DNA of 64,000 nt from Sphingomonas phyllosphaerae 5.2 (GTDB lineage Bacteria > Pseudomonadota > Alphaproteobacteria > Sphingomonadales > Sphingomonadaceae). Location of the stretch: positions 3,382,501 through 3,446,500 of the forward strand of contig NZ_ATTI01000001.1 of assembly GCF_000419605.1 (NCBI RefSeq), read 5' to 3'. This document shows, one piece after another, positions 36,778-55,392 of the stretch. Both the position numbers and the translations under genes were made by a program. The notes beneath the pieces are model-generated. The model was not told where the DNA came from, did no database searches, and saw only the letters and a list, made by a program, of their open reading frames with translations. The first letter of the stretch is position 1; each line of letters opens with the position of its first letter.

Positions 36778-36811
36778 GCGGCTTTCCGGGTACAATGACC
36801 TCAAGTTGATC

Positions 36812-36883
36812 CGTCATTGCGAGCGGAGCGAAGCAATCCAGAGCCGGATCGGGACGCGCTGGACTGCTTCGCTCCGCTCGCAA
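36812..36883. repeat. REP-like palindromic intergenic element
   Basis: Two 25-nt arms (36817-36841 and 36859-36883) are complementary with one mismatch around a 17-nt loop. The left arm contains TTGCGAGCGGAGCGAAGCA and the right arm ends CGCTCCGCTCGCAA. It lies in the gap between convergent rdgB and the CAP-domain gene. Related copies occur at 34783, 48415 and 51587. This type of short GC-rich repeat is scattered through many alphaproteobacterial genomes. Confidence 0.75.
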
Positions 36884-36965
36884 GGACGGGCTTGGTCAAT
36901 CTCTTCGCCCGATCGGGCTCGGCAACGCGGCCCACATCCGGCACCACCGGATTACCCGCTGGCAG

Positions 36966-37514
36966 TCAGTACGCGCGCCGTCCCGCCACCTCGCCGCCGG
37001 GGAAATAGCGACACACCAGGAAATCCTGTGCCTGCCCCTGCTCCATCGCGCAGCCGACCTCGGTCGTATCGCGCCACACGATCTGCGCGTAGTGCGCGGC
37101 ATCCTGCCAGCGACCGGTGCGGCTGAACCGCGGGCTCGGGCCGTTGCGGAAGTTGCGGCGCTCGGCCAGCCAGTACCGCGCCATCTCGCCATAGTCGTAG
37201 CCGCCGCGGGTGCCTGCGAACAGGTTTTCCCCCTGCCACCCGCTGCCTGCGGGCTGCTGCGCATGAAACAGTCGCCCGCTCCGCGCCAGTTCCTGCGCGT
37301 GGACGGCCGCAGCCGACGCCAGCGTGCGGCTCCACGCCAGCGGCGCCAGACCCAGTTCGCCACGCGCGCGATTGTGCACCTCGAGCATGGCGCGCTGGAG
37401 CACGCGGACATCGCGCGGCGGGGTCGGCTGGCGAATCCGCCACTCTCCGCCGGCCGCCGCGGCGGAGGCGCAAGTGAGGACAAGAATCAACGCGACGAGG
37501 CGACGTACAAGCAT
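36966..37514 (-). CDS. Secreted CAP/SCP-domain protein
   Basis: The 182-residue protein has a signal peptide (LVRRLVALILVLTCASAAAA) and a CAP domain. The conserved pieces are MLEVHNRARGELGL with the first His, HAQELARSG, the WQGENLF turn, HYAQIVWRDTTEVGCAM and FLVCRYFPGGE. Bacterial CAP proteins are extracytoplasmic and of mostly unknown activity. It lies on the opposite strand between rdgB and hemW, which are often adjacent elsewhere. Confidence 0.88.
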   Translation of the reverse strand: MLVRRLVALILVLTCASAAAAGGEWRIRQPTPPRDVRVLQRAMLEVHNRARGELGLAPLAWSRTLASAAAVHAQELARSGRLFHAQQPAGSGWQGENLFAGTRGGYDYGEMARYWLAERRNFRNGPSPRFSRTGRWQDAAHYAQIVWRDTTEVGCAMEQGQAQDFLVCRYFPGGEVAGRRAY

Positions 37515-37583
37515 CGTCGCCGTGAATGGCAAAGACGTTGCGCAACCGCAATGTGACTCGGGGGCGTGGTGGCCTTTGCTGCG

Positions 37584-38828
37584 ATGAACCGCCATATGCG
37601 CGCGACCATGGCCATCATCGACCTCGCCACTCCCGCCGCCGCCGCCGCCGACAGCAGCGCGGATGCCGCCGCCTTGCGTGACCGCGCAGCGCGCGCCGAT
37701 GCACCGCTAGCGCTGTACATTCATTGGCCGTTCTGCGTCTCCAAGTGCCCGTATTGCGATTTCAACAGCCACGTCCGCGCCACCGTGGACGAGGCGCGAT
37801 GGCATGATGCGCTGCTCGCCGACCTCGCGCACGAGGTGGCGCTGCTACCTGGACGGCGGCTGGGATCGATCTTCTTCGGCGGCGGTACGCCCTCGCTGAT
37901 GCCGCCCGCTACCGTGGCTGCACTGATCGACGCCGCCACCGCGGCCTGGGCGCCGGTCGGCGATGTCGAGATCACATTGGAGGCCAATCCTTCGTCGGTC
38001 GAGGCGGCGCGCTTCGCCGATATCGCCGCCGCGGGCGTCAATCGCGTGTCGCTGGGGTTGCAGGCGCTCGACGACGACGCGTTGCGCTTCCTCGGCCGCG
38101 CGCACGATGTGACAGAAGGTCTCGGCGCGCTCGCGGTCGCGCAAAAGGCGTTCGCGCGCGTCAGCTTCGACCTGATCTACGCGCGCCCCGGCCAGTCGCC
38201 CGCGCATTGGGATGCGGAGCTCGCGCGCGCCTTGTCGTTCGGAACCGAGCATCTGTCGCTCTATCAGCTGACGATCGAGCCCGGCACGCGCTTCGCGACC
38301 GAGGCGGCGGCGGGGCGACTGGCGATCCCCGACGGCGACGACGCCGCGGACCTGTTCGAGCTGACCCGCGCGCGCACCGCCGCCGCCGGCTTGCCCGCTT
38401 ATGAGATCTCCAACCACGCGCGTCCGGGCGCGGAAAGCCGCCACAACCTCGCTTACTGGCGCTACCGCGATTATGCCGGCGTCGGTCCCGGCGCGCATGG
38501 ACGACGCGACCATCTCGCTACCTTTCGTCGCCGCAAGCCGGAGAACTGGCTCGCCGCGGTCGCGCGCAACGGCCACGGGCTGGAAAGCGAGGAGCCGCTG
38601 GACGCCCGAACGCGTGTCAGCGAGGCGCTGCTGATGGGGCTGCGGCTTGCCGAGGGCGTCGACGTCGAGGCGATCGCGGCCGCGGGAGGCGCGCGCGTCG
38701 AGGAGATCGTCGACCTGCGCGCGGTCGCCTCGCTACCCGAACTGATCGTCTGCGAAGGCCCGCGGCTGCGCGTCACCGATGCGGGCATGATCCTGCTCGA
38801 CGCGATCCTGCCGAAGGTGGTGCGATAG
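37584..38828 (+). CDS. hemW: Radical SAM heme chaperone HemW
   Basis: The roughly 414-residue protein has the radical SAM cluster CVSKCPYCDF (Cys51, Cys55, Cys58) behind ALYIHWPF, then FFGGGTPSLM, LEANPSSVE and NRVSLGLQAL. The C-terminal HemN-type domain includes HNLAYWRYRDYAGVGPGAHG. HemW binds heme and delivers it to target proteins. It lacks the extra cysteine and length of true HemN. Four in-frame starts exist (GTG 37566, ATG 37584, 37596, 37608). 37584 is a guess based on GGTGG upstream. Confidence 0.9.
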   Translation: MNRHMRATMAIIDLATPAAAAADSSADAAALRDRAARADAPLALYIHWPFCVSKCPYCDFNSHVRATVDEARWHDALLADLAHEVALLPGRRLGSIFFGGGTPSLMPPATVAALIDAATAAWAPVGDVEITLEANPSSVEAARFADIAAAGVNRVSLGLQALDDDALRFLGRAHDVTEGLGALAVAQKAFARVSFDLIYARPGQSPAHWDAELARALSFGTEHLSLYQLTIEPGTRFATEAAAGRLAIPDGDDAADLFELTRARTAAAGLPAYEISNHARPGAESRHNLAYWRYRDYAGVGPGAHGRRDHLATFRRRKPENWLAAVARNGHGLESEEPLDARTRVSEALLMGLRLAEGVDVEAIAAAGGARVEEIVDLRAVASLPELIVCEGPRLRVTDAGMILLDAILPKVVR

Positions 38829-38831
38829 GAG

Positions 38832-38885
38832 GGGTCCGTTCCCCGAGAAGCACGGGAGCGACACGCCGGGCGTTTGCACGGACCC
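38832..38885. terminator. Long-loop hairpin after hemW
   Basis: GGGTCCGT (38832-38839) and ACGGACCC (38878-38885) are perfectly complementary, with smaller CCCG/CGGG complements inside. It begins 3 nt after the hemW stop and lies in the 257-nt gap to the convergent oxidoreductase gene. That gap also contains the self-complementary GCCTGCGCGCAGGC (39044-39057). Neither structure has a T-tract. Confidence 0.35.
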
Positions 38886-39085
38886 GCCGTCTCAGGACCC
38901 CGGCCTCCGCCGGCGAAACCGCAGGTCCCGCCCGACCGGCTCCCGCATCCTGTCCGTTCCGAGGAGACATCCGGCTTGTCGACGCGTCGTCTCGAAGCAC
39001 ACCGGTGGCGCGCATCCCTCGCGACGACGCCTCGACCGGCTCAGCCTGCGCGCAGGCGAACGGCGGTGGCGGGTAGCCGCGGCGC

Positions 39086-40246
39086 TTAATCCGCCAGACC
39101 GCTCCACTTCTCGCCGGACGTCGCATTCGCGACCACCGCCTCGACGAACGCCATCGTCCGCACGCCGTCCCCGGCACCCGGAAACCACGCCGCACTGCCA
39201 CGCGCCGCCACCGCATCACCGCCGCGGATCGTCGCCGCAACCGCGCGATAGAGATTGGCGAACGCCTCGATATACCCCTCCGGATGCCCGGCCGGCGTCC
39301 GCACCCGCGCCATCGTCGTGTCGGCAAGCCCCGGCCCGCCGGTGCGCACTATCTCGGCAGGGCGATCCAGCCACCGCAGCGTCAGCGTGTTGGGCTCCAT
39401 CTGCGCCCAGTCCAGCCCGCCCTTCTCGCCGTGGATGCGCAACCGCAAGCCGTTCTCGTCGCCGGCCGCGACCTGCGTCGCCTTCAGCACGCCGCGCGCG
39501 CCGCCTTCGAAGCGCAGCAGCACGCTGACGTCGTCGTCCAGCCGCCGCCCCGGCACATGCGTGGTCAGGTCGGCGCACAGTGCCTCCACCCTGACCCCGC
39601 CGACATGCTCGGCAAGCTGGAAGGCGTGGGTGCCGATATCGCCCAGGCAACCGCCGAGCCCGGCGCGCGCCGGATCGGTGCGCCATTCCGCCTGCCGGTT
39701 GCCCTCACGGTCCAGCGCGCTGCTGAGCCAGCCCTGCGAATATTCCACCTGCACCAGCCGGATCGCGCCGAAGTCGCCGCGCGCCACCCGCGCGCGCGCT
39801 TCCTCGATCAGCGGATAGCCGCTGTAGGTGAACGCCAGCGCATAATGCCGCCCGCTACGCTCAGCCGCCGCTGCGATCGCGCGCGCTTCGTCGAGGTTCA
39901 GCGACATCGGCTTCTCGCACACGACGTGGAAGCCTGCCTCCAGCGCGGCGATCGACATCGGCGCATGCAGGTGATTCGGCGTGACGATCGCCACCGCGTC
40001 GATGCGTTCGTCCGCCGGCAGCGCACGCTCCGCGGCCAGCATCGCATCGAGCGAATCATAGACGCGGCGCGCGTCCAGCCCCAGCAGGTCGCCGGTGCGC
40101 CGGTTGCGGCCGTCGTCGGTGCTGAACGCGCCCGCAACCAGCCGCCAGTCGCCGTCGATGCCGGCTGCCATCCGGTGCACCGCACCGATGAACGCGCCTT
40201 CTCCGCCGCCGACCATGCCGAGCTTAAGTGGTTCTACCCGCGCCAT
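39086..40246 (-). CDS. Gfo/Idh/MocA family oxidoreductase (cytoplasmic)
   Basis: The 386-residue NAD(P)-dependent sugar oxidoreductase has Rossmann segment LGMVGGGEGAFIG, AIVTPNHLH, and CEKPMSL with the family lysine. There is no signal peptide, unlike the homologue at 77-1168. GGGAGG directly upstream of ATG 40246 is a strong ribosome site. It diverges from the sugar-oxidation operon and shares a 143-nt promoter with it, with a LacI-type operator near the middle, so they are probably co-regulated. Relatives reduce or oxidise C3 of keto-sugars and inositols. Confidence 0.9.
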   Translation of the reverse strand: MARVEPLKLGMVGGGEGAFIGAVHRMAAGIDGDWRLVAGAFSTDDGRNRRTGDLLGLDARRVYDSLDAMLAAERALPADERIDAVAIVTPNHLHAPMSIAALEAGFHVVCEKPMSLNLDEARAIAAAAERSGRHYALAFTYSGYPLIEEARARVARGDFGAIRLVQVEYSQGWLSSALDREGNRQAEWRTDPARAGLGGCLGDIGTHAFQLAEHVGGVRVEALCADLTTHVPGRRLDDDVSVLLRFEGGARGVLKATQVAAGDENGLRLRIHGEKGGLDWAQMEPNTLTLRWLDRPAEIVRTGGPGLADTTMARVRTPAGHPEGYIEAFANLYRAVAATIRGGDAVAARGSAAWFPGAGDGVRTMAFVEAVVANATSGEKWSGLAD

Positions 40247-40310
40247 TCATCCTCCCGTCATCCGCATACCGTCATTACGAAGACCGTAACGCCAGCCGCC
40301 TTGCTATCCC

Positions 40311-40330
40311 CCGGTTTAGCGGTAAACTGG
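40311..40330. promoter_or_regulatory. LacI-type operator in the divergent promoter
   Basis: CCGGTTTAGC (40311-40320) followed by GGTAAACTGG (40321-40330) is a 20-bp palindrome with mismatches only at two symmetric positions. Its core differs by one base from the classic LacI-family GTTTACCGGTAAAC. It is about 60 nt from both divergent start codons. The LacI gene at 47368-48402, at the end of the plus-strand operon, is the likely binder. Confidence 0.6.
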
Positions 40331-40389
40331 CGGCAATCAAATCGGCTTTGCCACGTTGAGTTTGGCCACATTGGATTTGGAGAGATGCG

Positions 40390-40770
40390 ATGAAATTGAT
40401 CGCCGGGCTGGTTGCAGCCCCGATCGCCGCTACGGTGGCGCTGGCCCTGTCGGCTCCCGCCCCCGCGCAGCAGAGCGGACCGCAGGCATTCGCCGCCTGC
40501 AAGGCATGCCACACGCTGAACAAGGGCGGTCGCAACGGCATCGGCCCGAACCTGAGCGGCCTGTTCACGCGTCCCCCCGCATCCGCGCCGGGCTTCAACT
40601 ATTCGGCGGCGCTCAAGAAGGCGCAGATCAAGTGGGACGACAAGTCGCTCAACGAATTCCTTGCCGCCCCGCAGAAGAAGGTGCCCGGCACGCGGATGCC
40701 GATCGCCACGCCTGATCCTGCCAAGCGCGCCGCGATCATCGCCTATCTCAAGGCCGAGACCGTAAAGTGA
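40390..40770 (+). CDS. Periplasmic class I cytochrome c
   Basis: The 126-residue protein has a Sec signal (to APAPAQ, about residue 27), a single heme site Cys37-Cys40-His41 in CKACHTLNKGG, the GIGPNLSG loop and axial Met103 in PGTRMPI, all as in small mitochondrial-like cytochromes c. GGAGAG precedes ATG 40390. As the first gene of the operon it is the likely electron acceptor for the GMC dehydrogenase encoded at its end, passing electrons to the oxidases. Its stop overlaps the next start (GTGA). Confidence 0.93.
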   Translation: MKLIAGLVAAPIAATVALALSAPAPAQQSGPQAFAACKACHTLNKGGRNGIGPNLSGLFTRPPASAPGFNYSAALKKAQIKWDDKSLNEFLAAPQKKVPGTRMPIATPDPAKRAAIIAYLKAETVK

Positions 40771-41831
40771 GCGACACGCCTGCCGTGATGCGTGGTCCGG
40801 GCGTCTTCCTGGCGCAGTTCATGGGTGACGCCGCGCCGTTCGACACGCTCGACACGGCAGCGCGCTGGATGGCGGAGGCCGGCTACGAAGGGGTGCAGCT
40901 TCCCAGCGGTGATGCGCGTTGCATGGATCTCGCGCGCGCCGCCGAGAGCCAGGATTACGCTGACGAGCTGGTCGGGCGCTGCCGCGAGGCCGGTGTCGCG
41001 ATCACCGAATTGTCGACGCATCTGCAAGGCCAGCTGGTCGCGGTGCATCCGGCCTATGACGCCGCGTTCGACGTGTTCGCGCCGAAGGAACTCCGCGGCA
41101 AGCCCGCCGCACGGCAGGAATGGGCGGTCGAACAGCTCAAGCTCGCCGCAAAGGCCAGCCGCCGGCTCGGGCTCGACGCGCATGCGACCTTCTCGGGCGC
41201 GTTCGCGTGGCCGTTCGTCTATCCGTGGCCGCAACGCCCCGCCGGCATGGTCGAGGAAGCGTTCGGCGAGCTCGGCAAGCGCTGGCGCCCGATCCTCGAT
41301 GCGTTCGAGAACGAGGGCGTCGACCTCTGCTTCGAGCTGCATCCCGGCGAGGATCTGCACGACGGTACCACGTTCGAGCGGTTCCTTGATGCGGTCGGCG
41401 GGCACAAGCGCGCCAATATCCTCTACGATCCCAGCCATTTCGTGTTGCAGGCGATGGATTATCTCCAGTTCATCGACTTCTATCACGACCGCATCCGCAT
41501 GTTCCACGTCAAGGACGCCGAGTTCAACCCGACCGGCAAGGCGGGCGTCTACGGCAGCTATTCGGACTGGATCGATCGTCCGGGCCGTTTCCGCTCGCTC
41601 GGCGACGGGCAGGTCGATTTCGGCGCCATCTTCTCGAAGCTGACGCAATACGGGTATCGCGGCTGGGCGGTGCTCGAATGGGAATGCTGCCTGAAGAACG
41701 CCGAGGATGGCGCGCGCGAGGGTGCGCCGTTCATCGCCGCGCACATGATCCGTCGTCCCGAGCGCGCATTCGACGATTTTGCGGGCGGGTTCGATCCGTC
41801 GGCGAACCGACGGTTGCTTGGGCTCGATTGA
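40767..41831 (+). CDS. Sugar phosphate isomerase/epimerase-like TIM barrel
   Basis: The 354-residue xylose-isomerase-like (AP endonuclease 2 superfamily) protein has metal-site residues in FELHPGED (Glu), YDPSHF (Asp/His), MFHVKDAEF (His/Asp) and VLEWECC (Glu). No signal peptide is present. Homologues in glycoside-oxidation clusters isomerise or cleave 3-keto sugars. GTG 40767 overlaps the cytochrome stop, so it is translationally coupled. The exact reaction is inferred from context only. Confidence 0.87.
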   Translation: MSDTPAVMRGPGVFLAQFMGDAAPFDTLDTAARWMAEAGYEGVQLPSGDARCMDLARAAESQDYADELVGRCREAGVAITELSTHLQGQLVAVHPAYDAAFDVFAPKELRGKPAARQEWAVEQLKLAAKASRRLGLDAHATFSGAFAWPFVYPWPQRPAGMVEEAFGELGKRWRPILDAFENEGVDLCFELHPGEDLHDGTTFERFLDAVGGHKRANILYDPSHFVLQAMDYLQFIDFYHDRIRMFHVKDAEFNPTGKAGVYGSYSDWIDRPGRFRSLGDGQVDFGAIFSKLTQYGYRGWAVLEWECCLKNAEDGAREGAPFIAAHMIRRPERAFDDFAGGFDPSANRRLLGLD

Positions 41832-41888
41832 TCGGCCAAGCTGTCGAATAATACGACAAAAAGAATCATGTGGATAAAGGGGTAGAGG

Positions 41889-43196
41889 GTGCAGGCTGAG
41901 GCAGCGTTCACGGGACAGCATCGTTCCCGATTGTTCTGGCTGAGCGTCCTGGCGCTGACCACCGCGGCGGTCAGCGCGTCGCTGCGGGCGGCGATCGCCA
42001 GCAGCCTGAAGGCGCAGTGGATCGATCCGATCGCGCCGGTCGAGGCGGGCGAGCTGATCGGCGCGGCGCTCGGCTCGGCGTTCCTCGGCTTCGCCATCAC
42101 CCTGTTCGTCGCCAGCGCACTGCTCGACAAGATCGGCGCCAAGCGGATCGTGATCGGCTCGGGCGTGTGCTTCATCCTCGGTACGGCGTTGATCGTCGGC
42201 GCGGGCGCGATCGCATCGGGCATGACGATCTATTCGCTCGTCTGGCTGGGCATGATGCTCAGCGGGATCGGCTGGGGCCTGGCCGAATCGTCGATCAACC
42301 CGCTGACCGCGCGCCTGTATCCGGACGAGACCACCCACCGCCTCAACGTGCTGCACGCCTGGTATCCCGGCGGGCTCATCATCGGCGGACTGGCGGGCGT
42401 ATTCCTCGCCAACGTCCTGCCGTGGCAGGCGATCATGGCGCTGGTGTTCCTGCCGGCGATCGGCGTCGTCGTGATCGGCGCCACCACCACCTTCCCGCCC
42501 GCCCCCGCCGCGGTCGAGGGCGAGAGCTTCGGCACGATGATCGGCGAGGTGTTCCGTCGCCCCAGCTTCTTCGTCTGGTTCGGCGCGATGTTCCTCACCG
42601 CCTCGTCCGAGCTGGCACCCGGCCAGTGGCTCGACGTCGCGCTCACCAACCGCGTCGGAATGCGCGGTATCCTGCTGCTGGTCTATGTCAGCGCGTTGAT
42701 GTTCGTCTTCCGCCACTTCGCGGGCCGGCTGGCGGGCAAGCTCTCCAACCCGGGCCTGCTGTGGATCTCCAGCCTGCTCGCCGCGATCGGGCTGTTCATG
42801 CTGTCGCGCGCGCAGTCGCCGGTCGCGGCGCTCGTCGCCTCGACCGTCTGGGGTCTGGGCGTGTGTGCGATGTGGCCGACGATGCTCGCCTCGGTCGCGG
42901 AGCGCTATCCGCGCGGCGGCGCCTGGGCGCTCGGGCTGGTCGGCTCGGCTGGTGCGCTCGCCAGCTTCTTCGTGCTTCCCGCGCTGGGCGGCATGTTCGA
43001 CGAGGCCAAGGTGCGGCTCGCCGGCGGGCCGGAGGCGTTCAGGCAGTTGACCGGCGAAGCGTTGCGCCAGGTCGAGGACGCCGCCGCATCGCAATCGTTC
43101 GCGAAGCTGGCGCTGGTGCCGATCGTGCTGCTGGTCGTCTTCGGGCTGGTCTGGCTGTCGGAACGTCGCCGCCGTACCCCGGTCACCGCCGCATGA
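41889..43196 (+). CDS. MFS sugar transporter
   Basis: The 435-residue protein has 12 TM helices (first helix SRLFWLSVLALTTAAVSASL). It has GIGWGLAESSINPLTARLYP and HAWYPGGLIIGGLAG, motifs resembling FGHS/FucP-type sugar porters. It begins at GTG 41889, 57 nt after the isomerase gene, the only sizeable gap in the operon. It probably imports the oxidised sugar or its product from the periplasm. The next gene starts within its stop codon (ATGA). Confidence 0.87.
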   Translation: MQAEAAFTGQHRSRLFWLSVLALTTAAVSASLRAAIASSLKAQWIDPIAPVEAGELIGAALGSAFLGFAITLFVASALLDKIGAKRIVIGSGVCFILGTALIVGAGAIASGMTIYSLVWLGMMLSGIGWGLAESSINPLTARLYPDETTHRLNVLHAWYPGGLIIGGLAGVFLANVLPWQAIMALVFLPAIGVVVIGATTTFPPAPAAVEGESFGTMIGEVFRRPSFFVWFGAMFLTASSELAPGQWLDVALTNRVGMRGILLLVYVSALMFVFRHFAGRLAGKLSNPGLLWISSLLAAIGLFMLSRAQSPVAALVASTVWGLGVCAMWPTMLASVAERYPRGGAWALGLVGSAGALASFFVLPALGGMFDEAKVRLAGGPEAFRQLTGEALRQVEDAAASQSFAKLALVPIVLLVVFGLVWLSERRRRTPVTAA

Positions 43197-44113
43197 CGCC
43201 GTCGCGGCGCTCGGTACTGGCCGGCAGCGTCGCCGCCGCCTTGTCGTCGTCCGCGTCCTCGGCGACGCCGGGCGCCGCGACCGTGAGCAACGCCGCGACC
43301 TTCTCGCTCAACTTCGCGCCGCATGAGGGCAGCTTCGCCAGCCGTGGCGACCGCCTCGAACAGATCGCCTATGCTGCCGACCAGGGCTTCCGCGCCTGGG
43401 AGGACAACGAGGCGCGCGGCCGCTCGGTCGCCGAACAGAATGCGATGGCCAAGGCGCTGCAACAGCGCGGCATGACGATGGGCGTGTTCGTCGCATCGAT
43501 GCCGAGATGGTCGACGTTCCGCCCGATCTTCGGCAGCGACGACGGTGCGGAGCGCGAGGCGTTCCTCGCCGACGTCCGCGCCTCGATCGAGGTCGCCAAG
43601 CGTCTCGATGCCAGGCACATGACCGTCGTCACCGGGTTCGTCGACCACAAGGTGCCGATCGAGATCCAGACCGGCCGGGTCATCGACCTGATGCGCCGCA
43701 CGGCCGACATCCTTGCACCGCACGGTCTGGTCGCCGTGATGGAGCCGCTCAACACCCGCACCGACCACCCCAACATCTACATGCGGTCGTTCGCGGCCGG
43801 CTATGCGGTGGCGCGCGGGGTGAACAGCCCGGCGCTGAAGGTGCTGACCGACTGCTATCACGAGCAGATCCAGTCCGGGAACGTCATCCGTTCGCTCGGC
43901 ATGGTCTGGGACGAGATGGGCTATATCCAGTTCGGCGACAATCCCGGCCGCAAGGAGCCGGGAACCGGCGAAGTCAATTATCACAACGTCGTGCGCTTCC
44001 TGCGCGAGCGTCGCTACGGCGGCGTCATCGGCATGGAGCATGGCAATTCGGTGCCGGGCCGGGCGGGCGAGGAGCGGCTGATCGCCGCTTACCGCGCGAT
44101 CGACGCGGCATGA
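43193..44113 (+). CDS. Exported hydroxypyruvate isomerase-like TIM barrel
   Basis: The 306-residue protein opens with a Tat-type signal (PSRRSVLAGSVAAAL). The TIM barrel is of the Hyi family: FSLNFAPHEGSF, MEPLNTRTDHPN with a metal Glu, LTDCYHEQIQSGN, and GMEHGNSVPG. It should act in the periplasm on a small keto or aldehyde sugar. ATGA overlap couples it to the transporter. Tat export of a Hyi-type protein is uncommon and fits the other exported enzymes of this operon. Confidence 0.85.
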   Translation: MTPSRRSVLAGSVAAALSSSASSATPGAATVSNAATFSLNFAPHEGSFASRGDRLEQIAYAADQGFRAWEDNEARGRSVAEQNAMAKALQQRGMTMGVFVASMPRWSTFRPIFGSDDGAEREAFLADVRASIEVAKRLDARHMTVVTGFVDHKVPIEIQTGRVIDLMRRTADILAPHGLVAVMEPLNTRTDHPNIYMRSFAAGYAVARGVNSPALKVLTDCYHEQIQSGNVIRSLGMVWDEMGYIQFGDNPGRKEPGTGEVNYHNVVRFLRERRYGGVIGMEHGNSVPGRAGEERLIAAYRAIDAA

Positions 44114-44145
44114 GCGCGCGCCGCAGCAATTTTGGGAGAGGGTGA

Positions 44146-44727
44146 GTGATCGACAGACGACATGCCTTGGCGGGGGTCGCCGCCATGTTCGGGGCGCAAT
44201 TGTTCGCCCCGCTCGCGCGCGCCGCGACCGCGTCGGCGTCCAAGGTGAAGGGTGGCGGCATCCCCGTCATCAACGAAGGGCCGCCCAGCATGCAGGTCTT
44301 CACCGCGCCGCAACGCGCGTTGATGACCGCGCTCAGCGACCGGGTGGTGCCGGTCACCGACACGCCGGGCGCGATCGCCGCGGGGGTGCCGGAATATATC
44401 GAGAAGCTGCTCGCCGACTGGGGCACGCCGGACGATCGCGTGCCGATCGTCGCCGGGCTCGATTCGATCGAGATGCGCGCCAGGGCCGACTACAAGAAGC
44501 CGAGCGCGCAGCTGACCCCCGTCCAGCTCGACGCGCTGCTGACGCTTGCGATGGACGACAAGCTGCCCGGCGGGAAGGCGTTCTTCGAGCCGTTCCGCCA
44601 GATGGTGATCGCCGGCTATTACACGTCGGAAATCGGCATCACGCAGGAGCGCGAATATCTGCCCGTTCCCGGCGGCTATGACGGCGCCTTCCCCTATTCC
44701 AAAGTCAACAAGGTCTATTCCTCATGA
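44146..44727 (+). CDS. Gluconate 2-dehydrogenase subunit 3-family protein (small subunit of the GMC dehydrogenase)
   Basis: The 193-residue protein has a Tat signal (IDRRHALAGVAAMFGAQL) and the subunit 3 domain (RALMTALSDRVVPVTDTPGA, TPVQLDALLTLAMDDK, GYYTSEIG, EREYLPVPGGYDG). Such proteins carry a GMC flavoprotein through the Tat pathway as a complex. The flavoprotein at 45587-47266 lacks its own signal peptide, so this is its probable escort. GTG 44146 has GGGAGAGGG upstream. The stop overlaps the next gene. Confidence 0.9.
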   Translation: MIDRRHALAGVAAMFGAQLFAPLARAATASASKVKGGGIPVINEGPPSMQVFTAPQRALMTALSDRVVPVTDTPGAIAAGVPEYIEKLLADWGTPDDRVPIVAGLDSIEMRARADYKKPSAQLTPVQLDALLTLAMDDKLPGGKAFFEPFRQMVIAGYYTSEIGITQEREYLPVPGGYDGAFPYSKVNKVYSS

Positions 44728-45560
44728 TGACCAACCGTCGCAATGTCCTCGCCGGCGCCGGCGGCCTCGCCGCACTGGGCCTGTTCGGGGCGTCGGCGCA
44801 GGCCGCGCAGCTCGGCGCGGTCGGGCTCCAGCTCTACACCATCCGCGAGCTTTTCGGGCCGGACCCGATGGGCACGCTCGAGAAGGTTGCGAAGATCGGC
44901 TATCGCGAGGTCGAGTACGGCGGCGGCGGCTATGACAAGATGGACCATGCCGCGCTTCGCCGTACGCAGGACCGGCTCGGGCTGAAGGCGCCGTCGGTGC
45001 ACGTCCCCTACGAGTGGCTGCAGGCCGATTTCGCCGGCGTGGTGAAGATGGCCAAGACGCTGGGTGCCGACACCGTCATCCTGCCGTACATGACCGACCA
45101 GCATCGCAACGAGGCCGGCTGGAACGCGGCGCTGAAAGACTTCAACCGCTTCGCACGCGATCTGAAGAAGGCCGGCCTGGCGTTCGCCTATCACAACCAC
45201 GACTTCGAGTTCACCGTGAAGCCGGGCGGCGTGTCGCTCTACGATCGGCTCCTGAAGGAGACCGACCCGGCGCTGGTGAAGCTGGAGATCGACCTGTTCT
45301 GGGCGATCACCGCGGGGCAGGATCCCGCGGCGCTGATCCGCCAGCACGCCGGGCGCATCTACGCCTATCACGTCAAGGACAAGCGCGCCGACGGCAGCAT
45401 GTGCGCGGTCGGTGAAGGCAAGATCGACTTCGGGGCGATCTTCAAGCTGAACAGCATCGCCGGGGTGAAGCACTTCTACGTCGAGAACGACGAGTGCCCC
45501 GCCCCCTACCTGCCCGACATCACCACCAGCTTCCGCACGCTGCGCGCCCTGCGCTTCTGA
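44724..45560 (+). CDS. Exported sugar phosphate isomerase/epimerase-like TIM barrel
   Basis: The 278-residue xylose-isomerase-like protein has a Tat signal (TNRRNVLAGAGGLAALGLFG). Barrel motifs are GLQLYTIREL, GYREVEYGG, YHNHDFEF (metal His), LEIDLFW (Glu/Asp) and YAYHVKDKR. The family contains 3-keto-sugar processing enzymes, and export suggests the substrate is modified in the periplasm. Tandem ATGs at 44724 and 44727 overlap the previous stop. Confidence 0.87.
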   Translation: MMTNRRNVLAGAGGLAALGLFGASAQAAQLGAVGLQLYTIRELFGPDPMGTLEKVAKIGYREVEYGGGGYDKMDHAALRRTQDRLGLKAPSVHVPYEWLQADFAGVVKMAKTLGADTVILPYMTDQHRNEAGWNAALKDFNRFARDLKKAGLAFAYHNHDFEFTVKPGGVSLYDRLLKETDPALVKLEIDLFWAITAGQDPAALIRQHAGRIYAYHVKDKRADGSMCAVGEGKIDFGAIFKLNSIAGVKHFYVENDECPAPYLPDITTSFRTLRALRF

Positions 45561-45586
45561 TCGCGCCGACGGAGAGGACAATACAC

Positions 45587-47266
45587 ATGGCAGCGACCGA
45601 TACTTTCGACGCAATCGTCATCGGCTCCGGCGTCAGCGGCGGTTTCGCCGCGAAGGAGCTCACCGAAAAGGGCCTCCGCGTCCTGATGCTGGACCGCGGC
45701 ATCATGGTCGAGCACGGCGAGGGCTATGATTACGACGGCAAGCCCGCCTACGAGGTGCCCGCGCGCAACTCGATGCCCAAGGAGCTGATGGAGAGCGATT
45801 ACTTCATCTCCAAGCACGGCTATGTCACGCCCAGCAACCGCAAGTTCTACAACGACGACCGGCTGAACCCCTACGCCTTCGACGAAGGCAGCAAGTTCTA
45901 CTGGATTCGCCCGGCCGCCGTCGGCGGCAAGTCGCTGATCTGGGGCCGCTGGTCGTTCCGTTGGGCGCCGGAGGATTTCGAGGCGAACAAGCGCGAGAAC
46001 GTCGGCGGCGCCTGGCCGATCACGTACGACGACGTGCAGCCGTGGTATGATTACGTCGAGAAGTATATCGGCGTCTCCGGCTCGCGCGAGAATCTGCCGC
46101 AACTGCCCGACAGCCAGTTCCAGCCGCCGATGGACATGAACATCGCGGAAAAGTGGATCAAGCCGCGGCTGGAGAGCAAGTTTCCGGGCCGCAAGCTGAT
46201 CAACACCCGCCTGTCCAACATGACCGAGGACAAGCCGGACCAGAACCGTACCAAGTGCCAGTATCGCAACCAGTGCGGCAACGGGTGTTCGTTCGGCGCG
46301 TATTTCTCGACGCAGGCGGTGACCCTGCCGGCGGCGCGGGCGACCGGGCGGCTGACGCTGCGTTCCGACGCGGTGGTCACCAACCTCGATTACGATCCCA
46401 AGACGAAGCGCGTGACCGGCGTTCGCTACATCGATGCCACGACCGGGCAGGCGCAGACCGTCAGCGCGCGCATGGTATTCCTGTGCGCTTCGACGCTCGC
46501 TTCGGTGCAGATCATGATGAACTCGAAGGGGCCGGACGGGCGCAGCTGGTTCGACAACAGCGGCACGCTGGGCCGCTACGTCATGGACCACATCTTCCGG
46601 GTCAGCATCGGCGGCAACATCCCCGGGATGACCGACTTCATCGAATATGGCCGTCGCCCCGGCGGCGTCTACATTCCCCGTTTCCGCAACGTCGGCGGTG
46701 AGGAAGGCGTCGGCTTCAAGCGCGGCTATGGCTATCAGGGTTCGGCGTTCCGCGCGCCGGCTGCGCCGGTCGGGTTCGGCAAGTCGATGAAGGACGGCAT
46801 GCGCCGCTACGGCAACTGGCAGTTCGGGATGACCGCGTTCGGCGAGTGCCTGCCGTACGAGGACAATCGCGTGTCGCTGACTCCCGGCAAGGTCGACCGG
46901 TTCGGCGTGCCGTTGATGAAGTTCGACGTCACCTTCCGCGACAACGAGCTGAAGATGATGGCGGACGCGCGGGCGCAGGGCGAGGCGATGCTGCGCGGCG
47001 CCGGACTGACCGACGTGCGCAGCAGCGAGGGCGAGCATGTCCCCGGCGACGCGATCCACGAGATGGGCGGTGCGCGCATGGGTGCGGACCCGCGCCAGTC
47101 GGTGCTCAACAAGTGGAACCAGGCGCATGACGCCGCCAACCTGTTCGTCACCGACGGTGCGCAGATGGCGTCGGTCTCGTGCGTCAACCCGTCGCTGACC
47201 TTCATGGCGATGACGGCGCGTGCCGCCGACACCGCGGTGAAGATGATGAAGGCCGGCACGATCTAG
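45587..47266 (+). CDS. GMC-family FAD-dependent sugar dehydrogenase (large subunit)
   Basis: The 559-residue flavoprotein has an N-terminal FAD motif VIGSGVSGGF (Gly13, Gly15, Gly18), FYWIRPAAVGGKSLIWGRWS, a C-terminal HEMGGARMG and the active-site end VNPSLTFMAMTARAAD. A Cys cluster (CQYRNQCGNGCSFG) is similar to one seen in membrane-linked sugar dehydrogenases and may bind an Fe-S cluster. It has no signal peptide and should hitch-hike with the Tat-bearing subunit. With the cytochrome it matches glucoside 3-dehydrogenase (LacA/B/C-like) composition. GGAGAGGA precedes ATG 45587. Confidence 0.92.
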   Translation: MAATDTFDAIVIGSGVSGGFAAKELTEKGLRVLMLDRGIMVEHGEGYDYDGKPAYEVPARNSMPKELMESDYFISKHGYVTPSNRKFYNDDRLNPYAFDEGSKFYWIRPAAVGGKSLIWGRWSFRWAPEDFEANKRENVGGAWPITYDDVQPWYDYVEKYIGVSGSRENLPQLPDSQFQPPMDMNIAEKWIKPRLESKFPGRKLINTRLSNMTEDKPDQNRTKCQYRNQCGNGCSFGAYFSTQAVTLPAARATGRLTLRSDAVVTNLDYDPKTKRVTGVRYIDATTGQAQTVSARMVFLCASTLASVQIMMNSKGPDGRSWFDNSGTLGRYVMDHIFRVSIGGNIPGMTDFIEYGRRPGGVYIPRFRNVGGEEGVGFKRGYGYQGSAFRAPAAPVGFGKSMKDGMRRYGNWQFGMTAFGECLPYEDNRVSLTPGKVDRFGVPLMKFDVTFRDNELKMMADARAQGEAMLRGAGLTDVRSSEGEHVPGDAIHEMGGARMGADPRQSVLNKWNQAHDAANLFVTDGAQMASVSCVNPSLTFMAMTARAADTAVKMMKAGTI

Positions 47267-47367
47267 GTCCGGCCCTTGCCCCTGCCGTCATCGCGCATGC
47301 CGCGGGCCGGGCGGGCCTCACCGCCCCCCCGTCCCGCCCGTCGCGATGGCGGCCGGATCGTGCCGTC

Positions 47368-48402
47368 GTGACCAAGCGTCCCCGCGAGGGCGTCACGATC
47401 CGCGCGGTCGCGGCGCGCGCCGGCGTCTCGGCGATGACCGTGTCCAACGTAATCAACCGGGCCGGCCGCGCCAGCCCCGCCACCGCCGCCGCCGTCCACG
47501 CCGCGGTCGCGGAGCTCGGCTACGTCCCCAACGTCGCGGCGCGGCGCCTCGCCCGTGCCCGCGCGACCACCGTGGGGTTGCTGTACAGCGGCCGACGCGC
47601 ACCGTTCCTGGACGCGATCCTCGTCGGCGCACTGCGCGCCACCAACGCGCGCGGGCTGCAATTGCTGCTCCATCAGGAAGAGCCGTCGTCGCGCGCCGCG
47701 GCCGAGACGGCGGTCGGCGCACTCGCGCGCGGCGGTGCCGATGCGCTACTGCTCGTCCCGCCGTTCGCCGAGTTGCTGAGCGGTTCGGACGTGCTCGCCG
47801 CGCTCCGCCTGCCGGTCGCGGCGATCGCTACCGGGCACGTCCTCCCCGATATCGCGACGGTGCGGATCGACAATCGTGCCGCCATGGCCGAGCTGACCGC
47901 CTCGCTGATCGCGCGCGGCCACCGCCGCATCGCGCTGATCGCGGGCAACCCCGGCCATTCCGACAGCGCCGAGCGCGTGCGTGGCTATCACGACGCCCTC
48001 GCCGCGCACGGCATCTGCGCCGATCCGACGCTGTTGATCGCCGGGCGCTACGATCAGCCGTCCGGCGAAGCGGCCGCGCGGCTGCTGCTGGAGCGATCGC
48101 CGCGCCCCGACGCGATCATGTGCAGCAATGACGACATGGCCGCCGGGCTGATCGCGCAGGCGCACCGCGCCGGGCTGCGGCTGCCGCACGATCTTGCGGT
48201 GACCGGTTTCGATGACACGACGCTCGCCGCGCGCATCTGGCCGCCGCTGACCACCGTCCGCCAGCCCGCCGAGGACATGGCGTTTCGCGCCGCCGAGCAG
48301 CTGATCGGCACCGGCGACGGCGACGCCCCACCCTTCGACCTGATCGTCCCGCACGCGATCGTCGAGCGCGAGTCGACCTCCTGCCCACCGGCGTCCCCCT
48401 GA
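47368..48402 (+). CDS. LacI-family transcriptional regulator
   Basis: The 344-residue protein has the N-terminal helix-turn-helix (TIRAVAARAGVSAMTVSNVI), the hinge VAARRLARAR and a periplasmic-binding-like core with TATGHVLPDI-type and CSNDDMAAGL and GFDDTTLAARIWPPLTTV segments. It starts at GTG 47368, 101 nt after the GMC gene. It is the likely repressor acting at 40311-40330, with a sugar or keto-sugar as inducer. The effector is unknown. Confidence 0.93.
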   Translation: MTKRPREGVTIRAVAARAGVSAMTVSNVINRAGRASPATAAAVHAAVAELGYVPNVAARRLARARATTVGLLYSGRRAPFLDAILVGALRATNARGLQLLLHQEEPSSRAAAETAVGALARGGADALLLVPPFAELLSGSDVLAALRLPVAAIATGHVLPDIATVRIDNRAAMAELTASLIARGHRRIALIAGNPGHSDSAERVRGYHDALAAHGICADPTLLIAGRYDQPSGEAAARLLLERSPRPDAIMCSNDDMAAGLIAQAHRAGLRLPHDLAVTGFDDTTLAARIWPPLTTVRQPAEDMAFRAAEQLIGTGDGDAPPFDLIVPHAIVERESTSCPPASP

Positions 48403-48445
48403 CGCCGGATCACCCGTCATCCCGAGCGTAGCCAGGCGATCCGGT
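48403..48445. repeat. Diverged copy of the intergenic palindromic repeat
   Basis: CGTCATCCCGAGCG begins at 48415 and continues with GTAGCCAGGCGATCCGG. CCGGATC before it and GATCCGG after it can pair across the element. It follows the LacI gene immediately and may work as a transcript end. Confidence 0.45.
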
Positions 48446-48566
48446 GCCGGACCGGTACACCCCCGGTCGCAGCACGCCGCCCACTGACCGGACGAGCCGG
48501 ATGGCCGTTATGCCCGCAGACCGGCCCGCGAGCCTCGATCCGAGGCATCGCCGGCCACCTCCCGCC

Positions 48567-49094
48567 CTAGGGATGCACCCGCCCGCTCAGCACCGGATCG
48601 TCGAGCTCGATCGTCACCCGCCGCGACCGATCGGGTTTGCGCTTCCCCGCGCGCCCGGCTGCACCGACGAGATCGCCGATCAGCATCCCGGTGTTGGTCG
48701 CCTCACCGTCCCGCTCGCAACAACTTCCCGGCGCGACCAGCTTCTGCACGCCACGTACCAACGCCGTTCCCAACCCCAGTACGTCGAGCCCGGTCTGGCA
48801 CCCGCCGACGCGGGTCGCACACGGGGATGAATCCGCGCGTAGCGCGCCCATCCCGGTCATGTCGCGATTGACCGCCACCGGCCGTGACGACACGGCCTCC
48901 GCGGGCAGCGGCAGATCCTGCGCCGGCAACGGGTCCGCACATACCACCACTTCGCCCGTCACCGGACGCGCGCACGGCTGGCCCGCCACCGGGACGAGGA
49001 TGGAGTGCACGGCCGGCACGTCGGGCGCGGACGCAATCGAAGTCGCGACCGGCGGGGCGGACGAAGCTTGAAGCAGGAGCGCGACGATCAACAT
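48567..49094 (-). CDS. Secreted hypothetical protein, cysteine-containing
   Basis: The 175-residue protein has a short hydrophobic N-terminus (MLIVALLLQASSAPP) that may be a signal peptide, several cysteine pairs (GQPCARP, VVVCADPLP, SPCATRVGGCQ, PGSCCERDG), and a basic C-terminus (RAGKRKPDRSRRVTI). I recognise no family. It has a GAGGGG upstream of ATG 49094. The acidic-protein gene upstream on the same strand starts its own unit 49 nt away. Confidence 0.6.
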   Translation of the reverse strand: MLIVALLLQASSAPPVATSIASAPDVPAVHSILVPVAGQPCARPVTGEVVVCADPLPAQDLPLPAEAVSSRPVAVNRDMTGMGALRADSSPCATRVGGCQTGLDVLGLGTALVRGVQKLVAPGSCCERDGEATNTGMLIGDLVGAAGRAGKRKPDRSRRVTIELDDPVLSGRVHP

Positions 49095-49143
49095 CGCGTC
49101 AGCCTGCCCCTCGCCTTGCCGACCGTCAATCGGTCACACCAGC

Positions 49144-49482
49144 TTACGGGCGCAGCGCCGTGTCGTCGCGGTCGTCGAGTTCGTCGTCCTCGACGCTACC
49201 GTCGTCGAACTCTTCCTGGACTTCGTCTTCCTCGACGTCGGCATCGTCGGCGTCCGCCTCGCCGTCGACGGTCGCGACCTGGTCGTCGGTCATGACCAGC
49301 TCGTCCTCGTCCTCCTCGTCGTCGTCGCTGCCGATGTCGGGATCGAGGTCGACGATGATCGTGCCGTCACCCGGCCCGTCGCGCGTCGCCTCCAGGATCT
49401 CGGCGCGCTGACTCTCGTCATAGCCTTCCTCGTCATAACCGTCGTCGCCCGAACCCTGGCCATGCACCTGATGCCCGCCCAT
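49144..49482 (-). CDS. Very acidic 112-residue protein
   Basis: Starting at ATG 49482 (GAGGAA seven bases upstream, better than ATG 49497), the product has a short GGHQVHGQGSGDDG head with a GYDEEGYDES repeat. It continues with one ordered-looking segment TIIVDLDPDIG and a long Asp/Glu tract (GSDDDEEDEDEL, ADADDADVEEDEVQEE). Net charge is extremely negative, suggesting a disordered, cation-binding or nucleic-acid-mimic protein. No family is recognised. Confidence 0.6.
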   Translation of the reverse strand: MGGHQVHGQGSGDDGYDEEGYDESQRAEILEATRDGPGDGTIIVDLDPDIGSDDDEEDEDELVMTDDQVATVDGEADADDADVEEDEVQEEFDDGSVEDDELDDRDDTALRP

Positions 49483-49614
49483 CGCGAAGTTCCTCATCCG
49501 TTGAGCCAACGCAACGGTAGACGCGCCCGCCCGGTTCCCCATCGGCGCGCCTGTGCTGGCATCCCGGCATCGCAACGCCTAACTGGAGGCACGCAGAATA
49601 ACGGAGCCCGCTTC

Positions 49615-50571
49615 ATGCTCGATACGCCCGCCGCCGAAGTCCCGACGCTCAGCCTTGCCGACGAAGCGCGCGATCCCGCCGCATTCGCCGCCGCGCTGGG
49701 CGGTTCGTTCGAGCGCTTCGGCTTCGCGATCGTCGCTGACCACGGCGTGCCGCAGCCGCTGATCGAGCGTGCCTGGGCCGAGACCGCCGCACTGTTCGCG
49801 CTGCCCGAGGAGGAGAAGCGCCGCTATCACACGCCGGGCGGCGGCGGCGCGCGTGGTTACACGCCGTTCAAGACCGAGATCGCCAAGGATGCGCGCCACG
49901 TCGATCTCAAGGAGTTCTGGCACGTCGGTCGCGAATTGCCGGCCGGCCACCGCTTCGCCGATCAGATGGCACCCAATATCTGGCCCGATCGCCCGGAAGG
50001 CTTCCGCGCGACGTTCATCGACCTGTTCGCTGCCTTCGACCGCGCCGGGGACCGTTTGCTCGCCGCGATCGCGCGCCATCTCGGCCTCGCTCCCGACTGG
50101 TTCGATCCGGCGGTGAAGGACGGCAATTCGGTGCTGCGGCTGCTCCATTATCCCCCGATCCCGGCCGATGCGGAGGGCGTGCGCGCCGGCGCGCACGAGG
50201 ACATCAACCTCATCACGCTGCTGCTCGGCGCCGAGGAAGCGGGCCTCGAACTGCTCGACCGCGCCTCGGGCCAGTGGCTGGCGGTAAAGCCGCCGGAGGG
50301 GGCGATGGTCGTCAACGTCGGCGACATGCTGCAACGGCTGACCAACCACGTCCTGCCCTCGACCACGCACCGCGTCGTCAACCCGCCGCCCGAGCGCCGC
50401 GGCCATTCGCGCTATTCGATGCCGTTCTTCCTGCACCCCGCGCCCGATTTCCTGATCGAGACGCTGCCGCAGACGATCTCCGCGGCGAACCCGAACCGCT
50501 ATCCCGAGCCGATCACCGCGCATGGTTACCTCCACCAGCGGCTGGTCGAGATCGGGCTGATCAAGCCATGA
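49615..50571 (+). CDS. 2-oxoglutarate/Fe(II)-dependent oxygenase, isopenicillin-N-synthase family
   Basis: The 318-residue enzyme has the N-terminal DIOX_N region (FERFGFAIVADHGVP) and the catalytic jelly roll with the iron ligands His194, Asp196 (AGAHEDINL) and His252 (STTHRVVNPP). Arg266 and Ser268 of RYS bind 2-oxoglutarate. Such enzymes hydroxylate or otherwise oxidise small molecules. The stop overlaps the start of a bactofilin-like gene by ATGA. The substrate is unknown. Confidence 0.9.
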   Translation: MLDTPAAEVPTLSLADEARDPAAFAAALGGSFERFGFAIVADHGVPQPLIERAWAETAALFALPEEEKRRYHTPGGGGARGYTPFKTEIAKDARHVDLKEFWHVGRELPAGHRFADQMAPNIWPDRPEGFRATFIDLFAAFDRAGDRLLAAIARHLGLAPDWFDPAVKDGNSVLRLLHYPPIPADAEGVRAGAHEDINLITLLLGAEEAGLELLDRASGQWLAVKPPEGAMVVNVGDMLQRLTNHVLPSTTHRVVNPPPERRGHSRYSMPFFLHPAPDFLIETLPQTISAANPNRYPEPITAHGYLHQRLVEIGLIKP

Positions 50572-50810
50572 GGGACCTGTCGGGCATCGTCACCGGCGCG
50601 ATCCGGCTCGACCACGATGGCGAGATATCGGGCATCGTCAGCGGCGACATCACGGTCGCCGCCGGCTGCCGCGCGCTGATCTCCGGCATGATACGCGGCG
50701 ACATCACCGCCGAGCCGGGCGCGGAGGTGGTGATCACCGGCATCGTCAACGGCGCGGTTCACGCCGAAGGCGCCACGGTGCACGTGACGGGAATCGTGAC
50801 GCTGCCGTAA
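50568..50810 (+). CDS. 80-residue bactofilin-like beta-solenoid protein
   Basis: The protein consists of five repeats of 16-18 residues, each beginning with Gly-Ile/Met-Val/Ile-x-Gly: SGIVTGAI (5), SGIVSGDI (21), SGMIRGDI (39), TGIVNGAV (57) and TGIVTLP (74). This is the pattern of a right-handed beta-helix as in bactofilins and polymer-forming domains, but only about half the usual domain length and with no tails. ATGA overlap links it to the oxygenase gene. Polymer formation is inferred from the repeat pattern. Confidence 0.7.
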   Translation: MRDLSGIVTGAIRLDHDGEISGIVSGDITVAAGCRALISGMIRGDITAEPGAEVVITGIVNGAVHAEGATVHVTGIVTLP

Positions 50811-55277: not shown

Positions 55278-55392
55278 TTTGCAAGTACCGCCAGCGGGAT
55301 AGCTGCCCCGGCGCACGCCGCGACGGCGCTTGCCCCGCTCTACCTGCCACCCTACACCGGAGTGCAATACCAATAGAGTACCGGAGAACATC

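Follow-up and report, generated by a model that had tools for sequence, protein, structure and literature searches.

Agrobacterium enzymes of the non-hydrolytic route of glycoside breakdown are reportedly the subject of an Angewandte paper, and a gut-bacterial pathway of this kind is said to have been presented in a 2024 paper. For Agrobacterium tumefaciens, the available part of Bitter et al. 2023 (PMC10628242) gives the order of the steps as oxidation, elimination, hydration and reduction, describes the eliminase AtOGE as active on 3-keto-phlorizin, names H132, H134, D163, H189 and E233 as its active-site residues, and provides preliminary evidence for the hydratase AtHYD. Bacillus smithii degrades levoglucosan through the same four steps (LgdA-B1-B2-C, PMC7676230), the first of which is NAD-dependent and involves no GMC protein. 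In the Caulobacter crescentus lacABC/DUF1080 locus (Price et al. 2022, PMC9007349), a three-component lactose 3-dehydrogenase is accompanied by a transporter, two epimerase-like genes and a nearby reductase, and a DUF1080 hydrolase has been proposed to carry out the cleavage.

The locus discussed here lies in a window of 64 kb from Sphingomonas phyllosphaerae 5.2, the whole stretch of DNA that was analysed, and its gene content suggests that it is likely to be a complete operon for the non-hydrolytic breakdown of glycosides, with its steps divided between the two sides of the inner membrane. As far as the A. tumefaciens GlycDH-OGE-HYD-Gfo operon is described in the available part of PMC10628242, both loci contain a GMC dehydrogenase with a Tat-pathway partner, an AtOGE-type eliminase, an AtHYD-type hydratase and a Gfo/Idh/MocA oxidoreductase. 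The window differs in the Tat signal of its eliminase and in the addition of a cytochrome c, an MFS carrier, an exported Hyi-like barrel and a LacI gene with a predicted operator; judging from the numbering of 8bvk and a 25-residue offset, AtOGE would have no room for such a signal. The four steps proposed here are shared with the levoglucosan pathway, unlike the NAD-dependent start. The likeness to the Caulobacter locus extends to the composition of the oxidase, the transporter, the reductase and perhaps the epimerase-like genes, with a probable eliminase in the window where the DUF1080 hydrolase was proposed. The Caulobacter locus with its two 'epimerases' was not found via genomes of the class or the texts PMC9007349 and PMC4391529, and the locus L123 was not recognisably of that kind. 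An earlier note on this DNA had suggested chemistry beyond the LacABC system; this chemistry is largely published as the Agrobacterium route. In the literature searchable here, no counterpart was found for the exported Hyi-like barrel or for an eliminase that is exported.

Gene order, recurrence and probable divergent control

All nine genes listed in the earlier note, namely the barrels, GMC, subunit 3, cytochrome c, MFS, Gfo and LacI, are present where it had placed them, each above its Pfam gathering score. Neighbouring genes of the operon overlap by 4 bases at three junctions, the other internal gaps measure 57, 32 and 26 bases, and 101 bases precede LacI. Scans for sigma-70 promoters (1 promoter-like site against a shuffle mean of 0.8) and terminators (2 terminator-like sites against 4.7) gave no excess, and no tRNA was found at positions 36000-52000 of the window.

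The comparison of cluster content across relatives, which the earlier note had proposed as a check, revealed that the gene set recurs in order, and thus that the grouping goes beyond chance. A tblastn search with the Hyi-like barrel (E 1e-15, identity at least 30%) gave 219 relatives, the best 80 of which were compared; these loci are therefore selected for this barrel, unlike the samples from 199 genomes of the family. Of the 80 loci, 79 have subunit 3 and 77 have Gfo; GMC, cytochrome c, hydratase and eliminase each occur in 78, and the window-type MFS occurs in 33. With regard to regulation, a LacI-family gene was found in 59 of them, at least 55% identical to the LacI of the window in 26. 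Several of the fetched sphingomonad strains are leaf isolates according to their record titles.

The LacI-family repressor gene (47368..48402, plus strand; PF00356 and PF13377; start inferred, with the reading frame open from 47179) would repress both divergent units via an operator located between them. The probable operator, GTTTAGCGGTAAAC (40314..40327, no strand assigned), is found inside the 143-base region that separates the Gfo and cytochrome c genes; nowhere else in the window is GTTTANCGNTAAAC matched. The related pattern TTTANCGNTAAA is present in the Gfo/cytochrome gap of all 24 loci with the window's layout and a LacI of at least 55% identity, in one of the nine without, and only once elsewhere in 671225 bases. 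The association has a Fisher p of 6e-7, although the loci are not independent. Control by LacI, already put forward in the earlier note, is thus strengthened, since the predicted operator is kept in every LacI-bearing locus of this layout.

The proposed oxidase and the cytoplasmic enzymes

The oxidase appears to have three components. The GMC flavoprotein (45587..47266, plus strand; PF00732 and PF05199), which has no signal of its own, is proposed as the catalytic subunit of a C3 dehydrogenase, and it is accompanied by a subunit 3 with a twin-arginine signal (44146..44727, plus strand; PF13618, E 8.8e-31). A GMC catalytic subunit with a Tat-exported partner, in the window a PF13618 protein, is also what the Agrobacterium-type glucoside pathway has; export signals here were read from the sequence by eye. 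The third component is a cytochrome c (40390..40770, plus strand; PF00034, E 2.5e-9) with a signal peptide, the probable electron acceptor of the dehydrogenase. The set as a whole is of the LacABC type, in which we take LacA, LacB and LacC to be these three families.

The solved relatives found for the GMC protein are the large subunit of fructose dehydrogenase (7w2j, E 2.6e-38), to which three cysteines in one segment align, and glucose dehydrogenases. The window protein belongs to the same family as the FAD subunits of these enzymes (7w2j, 6a2u), and the assignment of C3 chemistry rests on the partner genes. The cytochrome is unlike theirs, being a 126-aa protein with a single CxxCH motif (CKACH), while the cytochrome of fructose and glucose dehydrogenases is a multi-haem membrane subunit. 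These relatives would be in keeping with oxidation of a non-sugar alcohol or of a sugar carbon other than C3, with the barrels engaged in unrelated steps, but the constant linkage with an AtOGE-type site and with the hydratase described below makes this very improbable.

That hydratase is the signal-less, cytoplasmic TIM barrel (AP_endonuc_2; 40767..41831, plus strand), whose start may be the GTG at 40767 or the ATG at 40788. It is identical to the solved structure 8ro4, titled '2-hydroxy-3-keto-glucal hydratase' in the PDB listing, at 252 of 347 aligned columns (73%; E 9.3e-179), a strong homology that points to the same function. The divergent Gfo/Idh/MocA gene (39086..40246, minus strand; PF01408, PF22725 and PF02894; best PDB match 3v5n, E 4.6e-101) carries no signal and probably encodes a cytoplasmic 3-keto-glucose reductase, judging from its family and its linkage to the hydratase. 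Of 27 places found in the class, 20 neighbourhoods (19 genomes) were compared, and 19 of them show a Gfo relative next to the hydratase. A GMC and subunit 3 of the window type were near it in only one of these 20 (L121), so that finding hydratase and Gfo together is not enough to predict this oxidase. The MFS transporter (41889..43196, plus strand; PF07690, E 3.4e-21) probably carries the keto-glycal or keto-sugar, once released, into the cytoplasm; in both of the loci checked that have the other layout, the gene ahead of the hydratase encodes a Nuc_H_symport carrier (PF03825).

Two exported barrels

The third barrel of the operon (AP_endonuc_2; 44724..45560, plus strand) has a twin-arginine signal and is related to AtOGE, the O-glycoside beta-eliminase of Agrobacterium, most likely with the function of a 3-keto-glycoside lyase. 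Overall similarity to AtOGE is modest (8bvk, E 2.2e-24, 89.9 bits); structures titled 'sugar phosphate isomerase/epimerase' score little less, at 70-73 bits. H157, H159, D190, H216 and E254 align to all five active-site residues of AtOGE, in the order in which these are given above, and each is conserved in at least 98% of 87 sequences. The Tat motif is likewise kept in at least 98% of these, which suggests that the imported molecule is probably a keto-glycal.

The role of the other exported barrel, which is Hyi-like (AP_endonuc_2; 43193..44113, plus strand; PF01261, E 2.1e-31; twin-arginine signal), is more tentative. Databases name it 'hydroxypyruvate isomerase' or 'TIM barrel protein'. Hydroxypyruvate isomerase (TIGR03234; 115.8 bits against a curated cut-off of 353.45) and the 2-oxo-tetronate isomerase OtnI (NF043033; 107.6 bits against 325) were both rejected as names for it. 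Distant relatives of 36-40% identity in three genomes from other families of the class were set aside, as their loci (L091-L093) lack the window's other eight proteins.

Within the family, a barrel of at least 67% identity is found in 10 of 199 genomes, every time at most 2.5 kb from the eliminase. The gene is absent from 4 of the 14 eliminase-bearing genomes, and in one relative it is reduced to a decayed remnant. Downstream of it, 57 of the 80 loci compared have a DUF1080 hydrolase gene as the neighbour, and the genome of the window has six PF06439 matches. The DUF1080 neighbour and the PF06439 matches, together with the like oxidase composition, would also suit a LacABC-type operon for lactose or other disaccharides, in which cleavage is hydrolytic and the barrels only process 3-keto-hexoses. 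This seems improbable, as the window's own cluster has no DUF1080 gene in the 32 bases after the Hyi-like gene or elsewhere, the nearest one seen in the window (54510-55277) lies outside the operon, and all 23 of the 80 loci without DUF1080 retain the eliminase. An exclusive tie of the Hyi-like barrel to the window-type oxidase was weakened by one genome (G333) with the Hyi-like/DUF1080 pair and no PF13618 match.

Six residues of the Hyi-like barrel, E184, D220, H223, Q246, R253 and E282, do not vary among 37 aligned sequences; an alignment with one row in the wrong frame (L085, 25% identity) was set aside. The solved structures closest to this barrel belong to isomerases and epimerases, and it shares with 3ngf a set of E-D-Q-E positions that we presume to be metal-binding. 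The favoured, still tentative, reading makes it an accessory enzyme, a metal-dependent epimerase or isomerase whose action on 3-keto-sugars or 3-keto-glycosides would broaden the range of substrates. The E. coli 3-keto-D-glucoside 4-epimerase YcjR (6wn6), which is named for such substrates and may work in a like manner, proved to be a distant relative rather than a close one (E 2.2e-8, 37 bits over 120 residues). YcjR is cytoplasmic, unlike the exported barrel.

It is unlikely, though conceivable, that the Hyi-like barrel is instead another lyase, one that releases groups bound in alpha linkage or leaving groups of other kinds, in which case the operon would have two eliminating enzymes and the epimerase idea would be wrong. 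The barrel is exported and sited among cleavage and oxidation genes, and the frequent DUF1080 neighbour suggests that the cluster gathers cleavage enzymes. When the two exported barrels are aligned by profile, weakly (probability 81%), D220, Q246 and the invariant H192 stand opposite D190, H216 and the catalytic H159 of the eliminase, but E184 falls in a gap, so that the H192/H159 pairing is not secure; the solved relatives and the 3ngf-like positions also argue against a lyase. A glutamate ligand does not exclude one, since C-glycoside eliminases carry Glu at the position of the AtOGE ligand His132, according to the available part of PMC10628242.

A somewhat less likely role is that of a repair isomerase, which would return spontaneously formed 2-keto (or 4-keto) glycosides to the 3-keto form. 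Enzymes of the Hyi type move a carbonyl group from one carbon to the next, and the absence of the gene from some eliminase-bearing genomes indicates that it is not essential to the core. PMC10628242 deals with 3-keto-nothofagin turning spontaneously into the 2-keto form, but nothofagin is a C-glycoside, and the DUF1080 pairing would be left unexplained.

A proposed route divided by the inner membrane

The proposed pathway would begin in the periplasm, where, judging from their families, GMC and subunit 3 would oxidise the C3 hydroxyl of the glycosyl moiety and pass electrons to cytochrome c, with GMC co-exported on the Tat signal of subunit 3. The exported eliminase-like barrel would then abstract the proton at C2, beside the ketone, and expel the aglycone, yielding 2-hydroxy-3-keto-glucal, as its homology and five conserved residues suggest. 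From the location of the preceding and following enzymes, this keto-glycal would probably be imported by the MFS carrier. In the cytoplasm, the hydratase would add water to give 3-keto-glucose, which the Gfo reductase may reduce to glucose. The route of periplasmic oxidation, cleavage, import and reduction drawn in the earlier note stands as an outline; it was incomplete in that the cleavage is most likely a beta-elimination followed by hydration.

A more doubtful extension is a sphingomonad periplasmic 'oxidise, epimerise, cleave' module, of which no description was found in the literature searchable here. In such a module, the eliminase would act outside the membrane and the reactive 2-hydroxy-3-keto-glycal would be imported, while the exported metal-dependent Hyi-like 3-keto-sugar epimerase/isomerase, commonly with DUF1080, would feed glycosides of galacto, gulo or manno configuration into the gluco route. 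The Hyi-like barrel would thereby gain a testable function, for which the genomes with the eliminase and without the Hyi-like gene are natural comparisons.

Through this locus, an alternative to glycosidases that was described only recently would extend to sphingomonads, where it comes with a clear predicted regulatory site and an accessory gene separable from the rest. Should the eliminase be periplasmic, the aglycone need not reach the cytoplasm, and a carrier for the keto-glycal should exist. In these bacteria, sugar conjugates of the plant type would thus most likely be broken outside the inner membrane by oxidation and elimination, not by hydrolysis.

Operon architecture and predicted LacI control

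All nine genes claimed in the earlier note at 39086-48402 were found, in the order it gave: Gfo on the reverse strand, then cytochrome c, hydratase, MFS carrier, Hyi-like barrel, subunit 3, eliminase, GMC and LacI, each with a Pfam match above the gathering score. Neighbouring genes overlap by 4 bases at three junctions (cytochrome c/hydratase, MFS/Hyi-like barrel and subunit 3/eliminase), the remaining intra-operon gaps measure 57, 32 and 26 bases, and LacI is preceded by 101 bases. Inspection by eye shows twin-arginine motifs at the beginning of the three exported proteins (SRRSVL, DRRHAL and NRRNVL), an ordinary signal in cytochrome c, and no signal in GMC, the hydratase or Gfo.

The 143 bases that separate Gfo from cytochrome c contain GTTTAGCGGTAAAC, the sole such site in the window. 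Among 33 loci with the MFS_1-bearing gene order of the window (layout A), TTTANCGNTAAA is found in the Gfo-cytochrome c gap in 24 of the 24 with a LacI relative at no less than 55%, and in one of the nine without, L041, whose contig ends before the LacI position; it occurs once elsewhere in 671225 bases. This association is strong indirect evidence that LacI controls both divergent units via the predicted operator.

The eliminase, the hydratase and the predicted route

The Agrobacterium pathway comprises four enzymatic steps, namely C3 oxidation, beta-elimination, hydration and reduction (Bitter et al. 2023, PMC10628242), and the levoglucosan pathway follows the same logic (PMC7676230). In Agrobacterium the oxidation step uses a flavin dehydrogenase whose partner belongs to the Tat pathway, AtOGE carries out the beta-elimination, AtHYD the hydration (the evidence there is preliminary) and a Gfo enzyme the reduction; the operon includes two barrels (PMC10628242). 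Each of these described parts has a relative in the window cluster, which differs in the Tat motif of its eliminase and in its extra exported Hyi-like barrel.

The best PDB match of the eliminase (44724-45560) is 8bvk (E 2.2e-24), the structure of AtOGE, an O-glycoside beta-eliminase from Agrobacterium (PMC10628242); the runner-up structures, at 70-73 bits, are named sugar phosphate isomerase/epimerase. The same source gives His132, Asp163, His189 and Glu233 (the last weak) as metal ligands; His134 is its catalytic residue, and the H134A variant has no activity (PMC10628242). In the HMMER alignment, H157, D190, H216 and E254 fall on these ligands and H159 on His134, and each of the five, like both arginines of the Tat motif, is retained in at least 98% of 87 sequences. 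The 8bvk alignment has a 25-residue offset to the eliminase and its numbering matches that of the paper, so that AtOGE would have no room for a signal. If the eliminase is indeed exported, cleavage would be periplasmic here and the imported molecule a keto-glycal. A carrier lies beside the hydratase both in layout A (MFS_1) and in a second gene order, layout B (Nuc_H_symport in the two loci checked), which fits such import despite the different families.

The hydratase (40767-41831) has a PDB match in 8ro4 (E 9.3e-179), an entry that bears the name 2-hydroxy-3-keto-glucal hydratase, with identity in 252 of 347 aligned columns. Of 289 class genomes sampled, 25 contain its relatives, at 27 places, of which 20 neighbourhoods (19 genomes) were fetched. 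A Gfo relative adjoins it in 19, the exception (L124) being a short contig, and window-type GMC and subunit 3 genes are near in only one (L121), so that the hydratase-Gfo pair looks like the terminal steps common to several glycoside routes. On a Sphingobium plasmid (L118:1797-10083) the pair occurs with TIM barrel, DUF6379, MFS, GMC and GH43 genes; the TIM barrel and DUF6379 make-up is that of C-glycoside eliminases, and the cluster is possibly a C-glycoside counterpart with the same end.

At sequence level, the evidence covers gene content and order, signals, conserved active sites, hydratase identity and the operator. Oxidation would take place at C3, elimination would be performed by the barrel at 44724-45560, and the keto-glycal would be imported and finally reduced to glucose.

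Candidate activities of the exported Hyi-like barrel

The structures nearest to the Hyi-like barrel (43193-44113) are 3ngf (AP endonuclease family 2) and E. coli YgbM, followed by tagatose 3-epimerases and the 3-keto-D-glucoside 4-epimerase 6wn6. As a hydroxypyruvate isomerase or a 2-oxo-tetronate isomerase it scores below the curated cut-offs. Across 37 sequences, with identities as low as 38%, no substitution is seen at E184, D220, H223, Q246, R253 or E282, and the protein therefore looks catalytically intact. Our tentative hypothesis is that it acts as a 3-keto-sugar epimerase or isomerase. A second lyase is rather unlikely; compatible with it is the weak direct profile comparison with the eliminase (probability 81%, E 1.3e-5), which sets D220 opposite D190, Q246 opposite H216 and the invariant H192 opposite the catalytic H159, but leaves E184 in a gap. 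A role as a repair isomerase is more doubtful still.

Distribution and pairing with DUF1080

Of 199 genomes sampled from the family, 10 have the Hyi-like barrel at an identity of at least 67% and 14 have the eliminase; one further barrel match (43%) lies elsewhere, in genome G333. All 10 also carry the eliminase, on the same contig and by coordinates within 2.5 kb. If G333 is scored as lacking the barrel, the Fisher p is about 5e-14, a value that overstates independence, the genomes being related. In the four with the eliminase alone (G329, G408 and G467 of genus g264, and G358), a neighbourhood search at E 1e-4 found only 26 codons of the barrel's 3' end at L095:11084-11161 (G329), the expected place between the MFS and subunit 3 genes. 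This fragment (residues 278-303, E282 changed) is the degenerate relic of a gene that has been lost, and the Hyi-like barrel is thus accessory, outside the four-step core. In the phylum sample of 398 genomes, the close family (E 1e-50) was found in six, all from the taxonomic family of the window; in the class sample, relatives at 36-40% identity occur in three genomes outside that family, and no matches to the window's other proteins were found near them.

Among the best 80 of 219 relatives, a gene for a DUF1080 3-keto-disaccharide hydrolase (PF06439; E 1.3e-40 for the L115 copy) comes next after the Hyi-like gene in 57 loci, and in 56 of these it precedes subunit 3, the L041 contig ending there. 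The other 23, among them the window's closest relatives, have no DUF1080 at that place and all keep the eliminase; in L097, DUF1080 is present without the barrel, so that the two genes are separable. The pairing extends beyond this operon, since an uninterrupted row of Hyi-like (41%), haem protein, DUF1080, GMC and subunit 3 genes occurs in the gammaproteobacterium Catenovulum adriaticum, and in G333 (L099:9148-10916) the Hyi-like and DUF1080 genes adjoin amid sulfatases, GH43 and an alpha-galactosidase-like gene. Named relatives of the Catenovulum protein, among the 120 listed, include Verrucomicrobia.

Further DUF1080 and oxidase genes were observed. The window itself has, roughly 6 kb from the operon, a DUF1080 gene (54510-55277) and next to it a beta-N-acetylglucosaminidase gene (55330-57324; PF07555, PF02838). 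One genome holds a compact DUF1080, GMC and subunit 3 set resembling a hydrolytic 3-keto-glycoside system (L090:6271-9427), an orphan subunit 3 and GMC pair (L089:10222-12514, C1 about 2022 kb; GMC 72% identical to the window's) with proline dehydrogenase and a Na+/H+ antiporter among its surroundings, and another twin-arginine Hyi-like barrel (L105:1447-2286, PF01261) next to a gene that, judged by eye, resembles GH43.

The pairing speaks for a step of sugar processing alongside the cleavage of 3-keto-glycosides. Genome G333, which has no match to PF13618, indicates that the pair can exist without a window-type oxidase, and this counts against the epimerase or isomerase reading. An epimerase would agree, at the level of gene descriptions, with Caulobacter data in which lactose use depends on genes upstream of lacB for a transporter, a reductase and two epimerases (PMC9007349). 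The open-licence papers searched yielded none on an operon of this kind with an exported Hyi-like barrel. If the barrel is a C4 epimerase, it would convert 3-keto-galacto or gulo forms to the gluco form, the same type of conversion that E. coli YcjR, by its name and the title of its paper, is said to perform.
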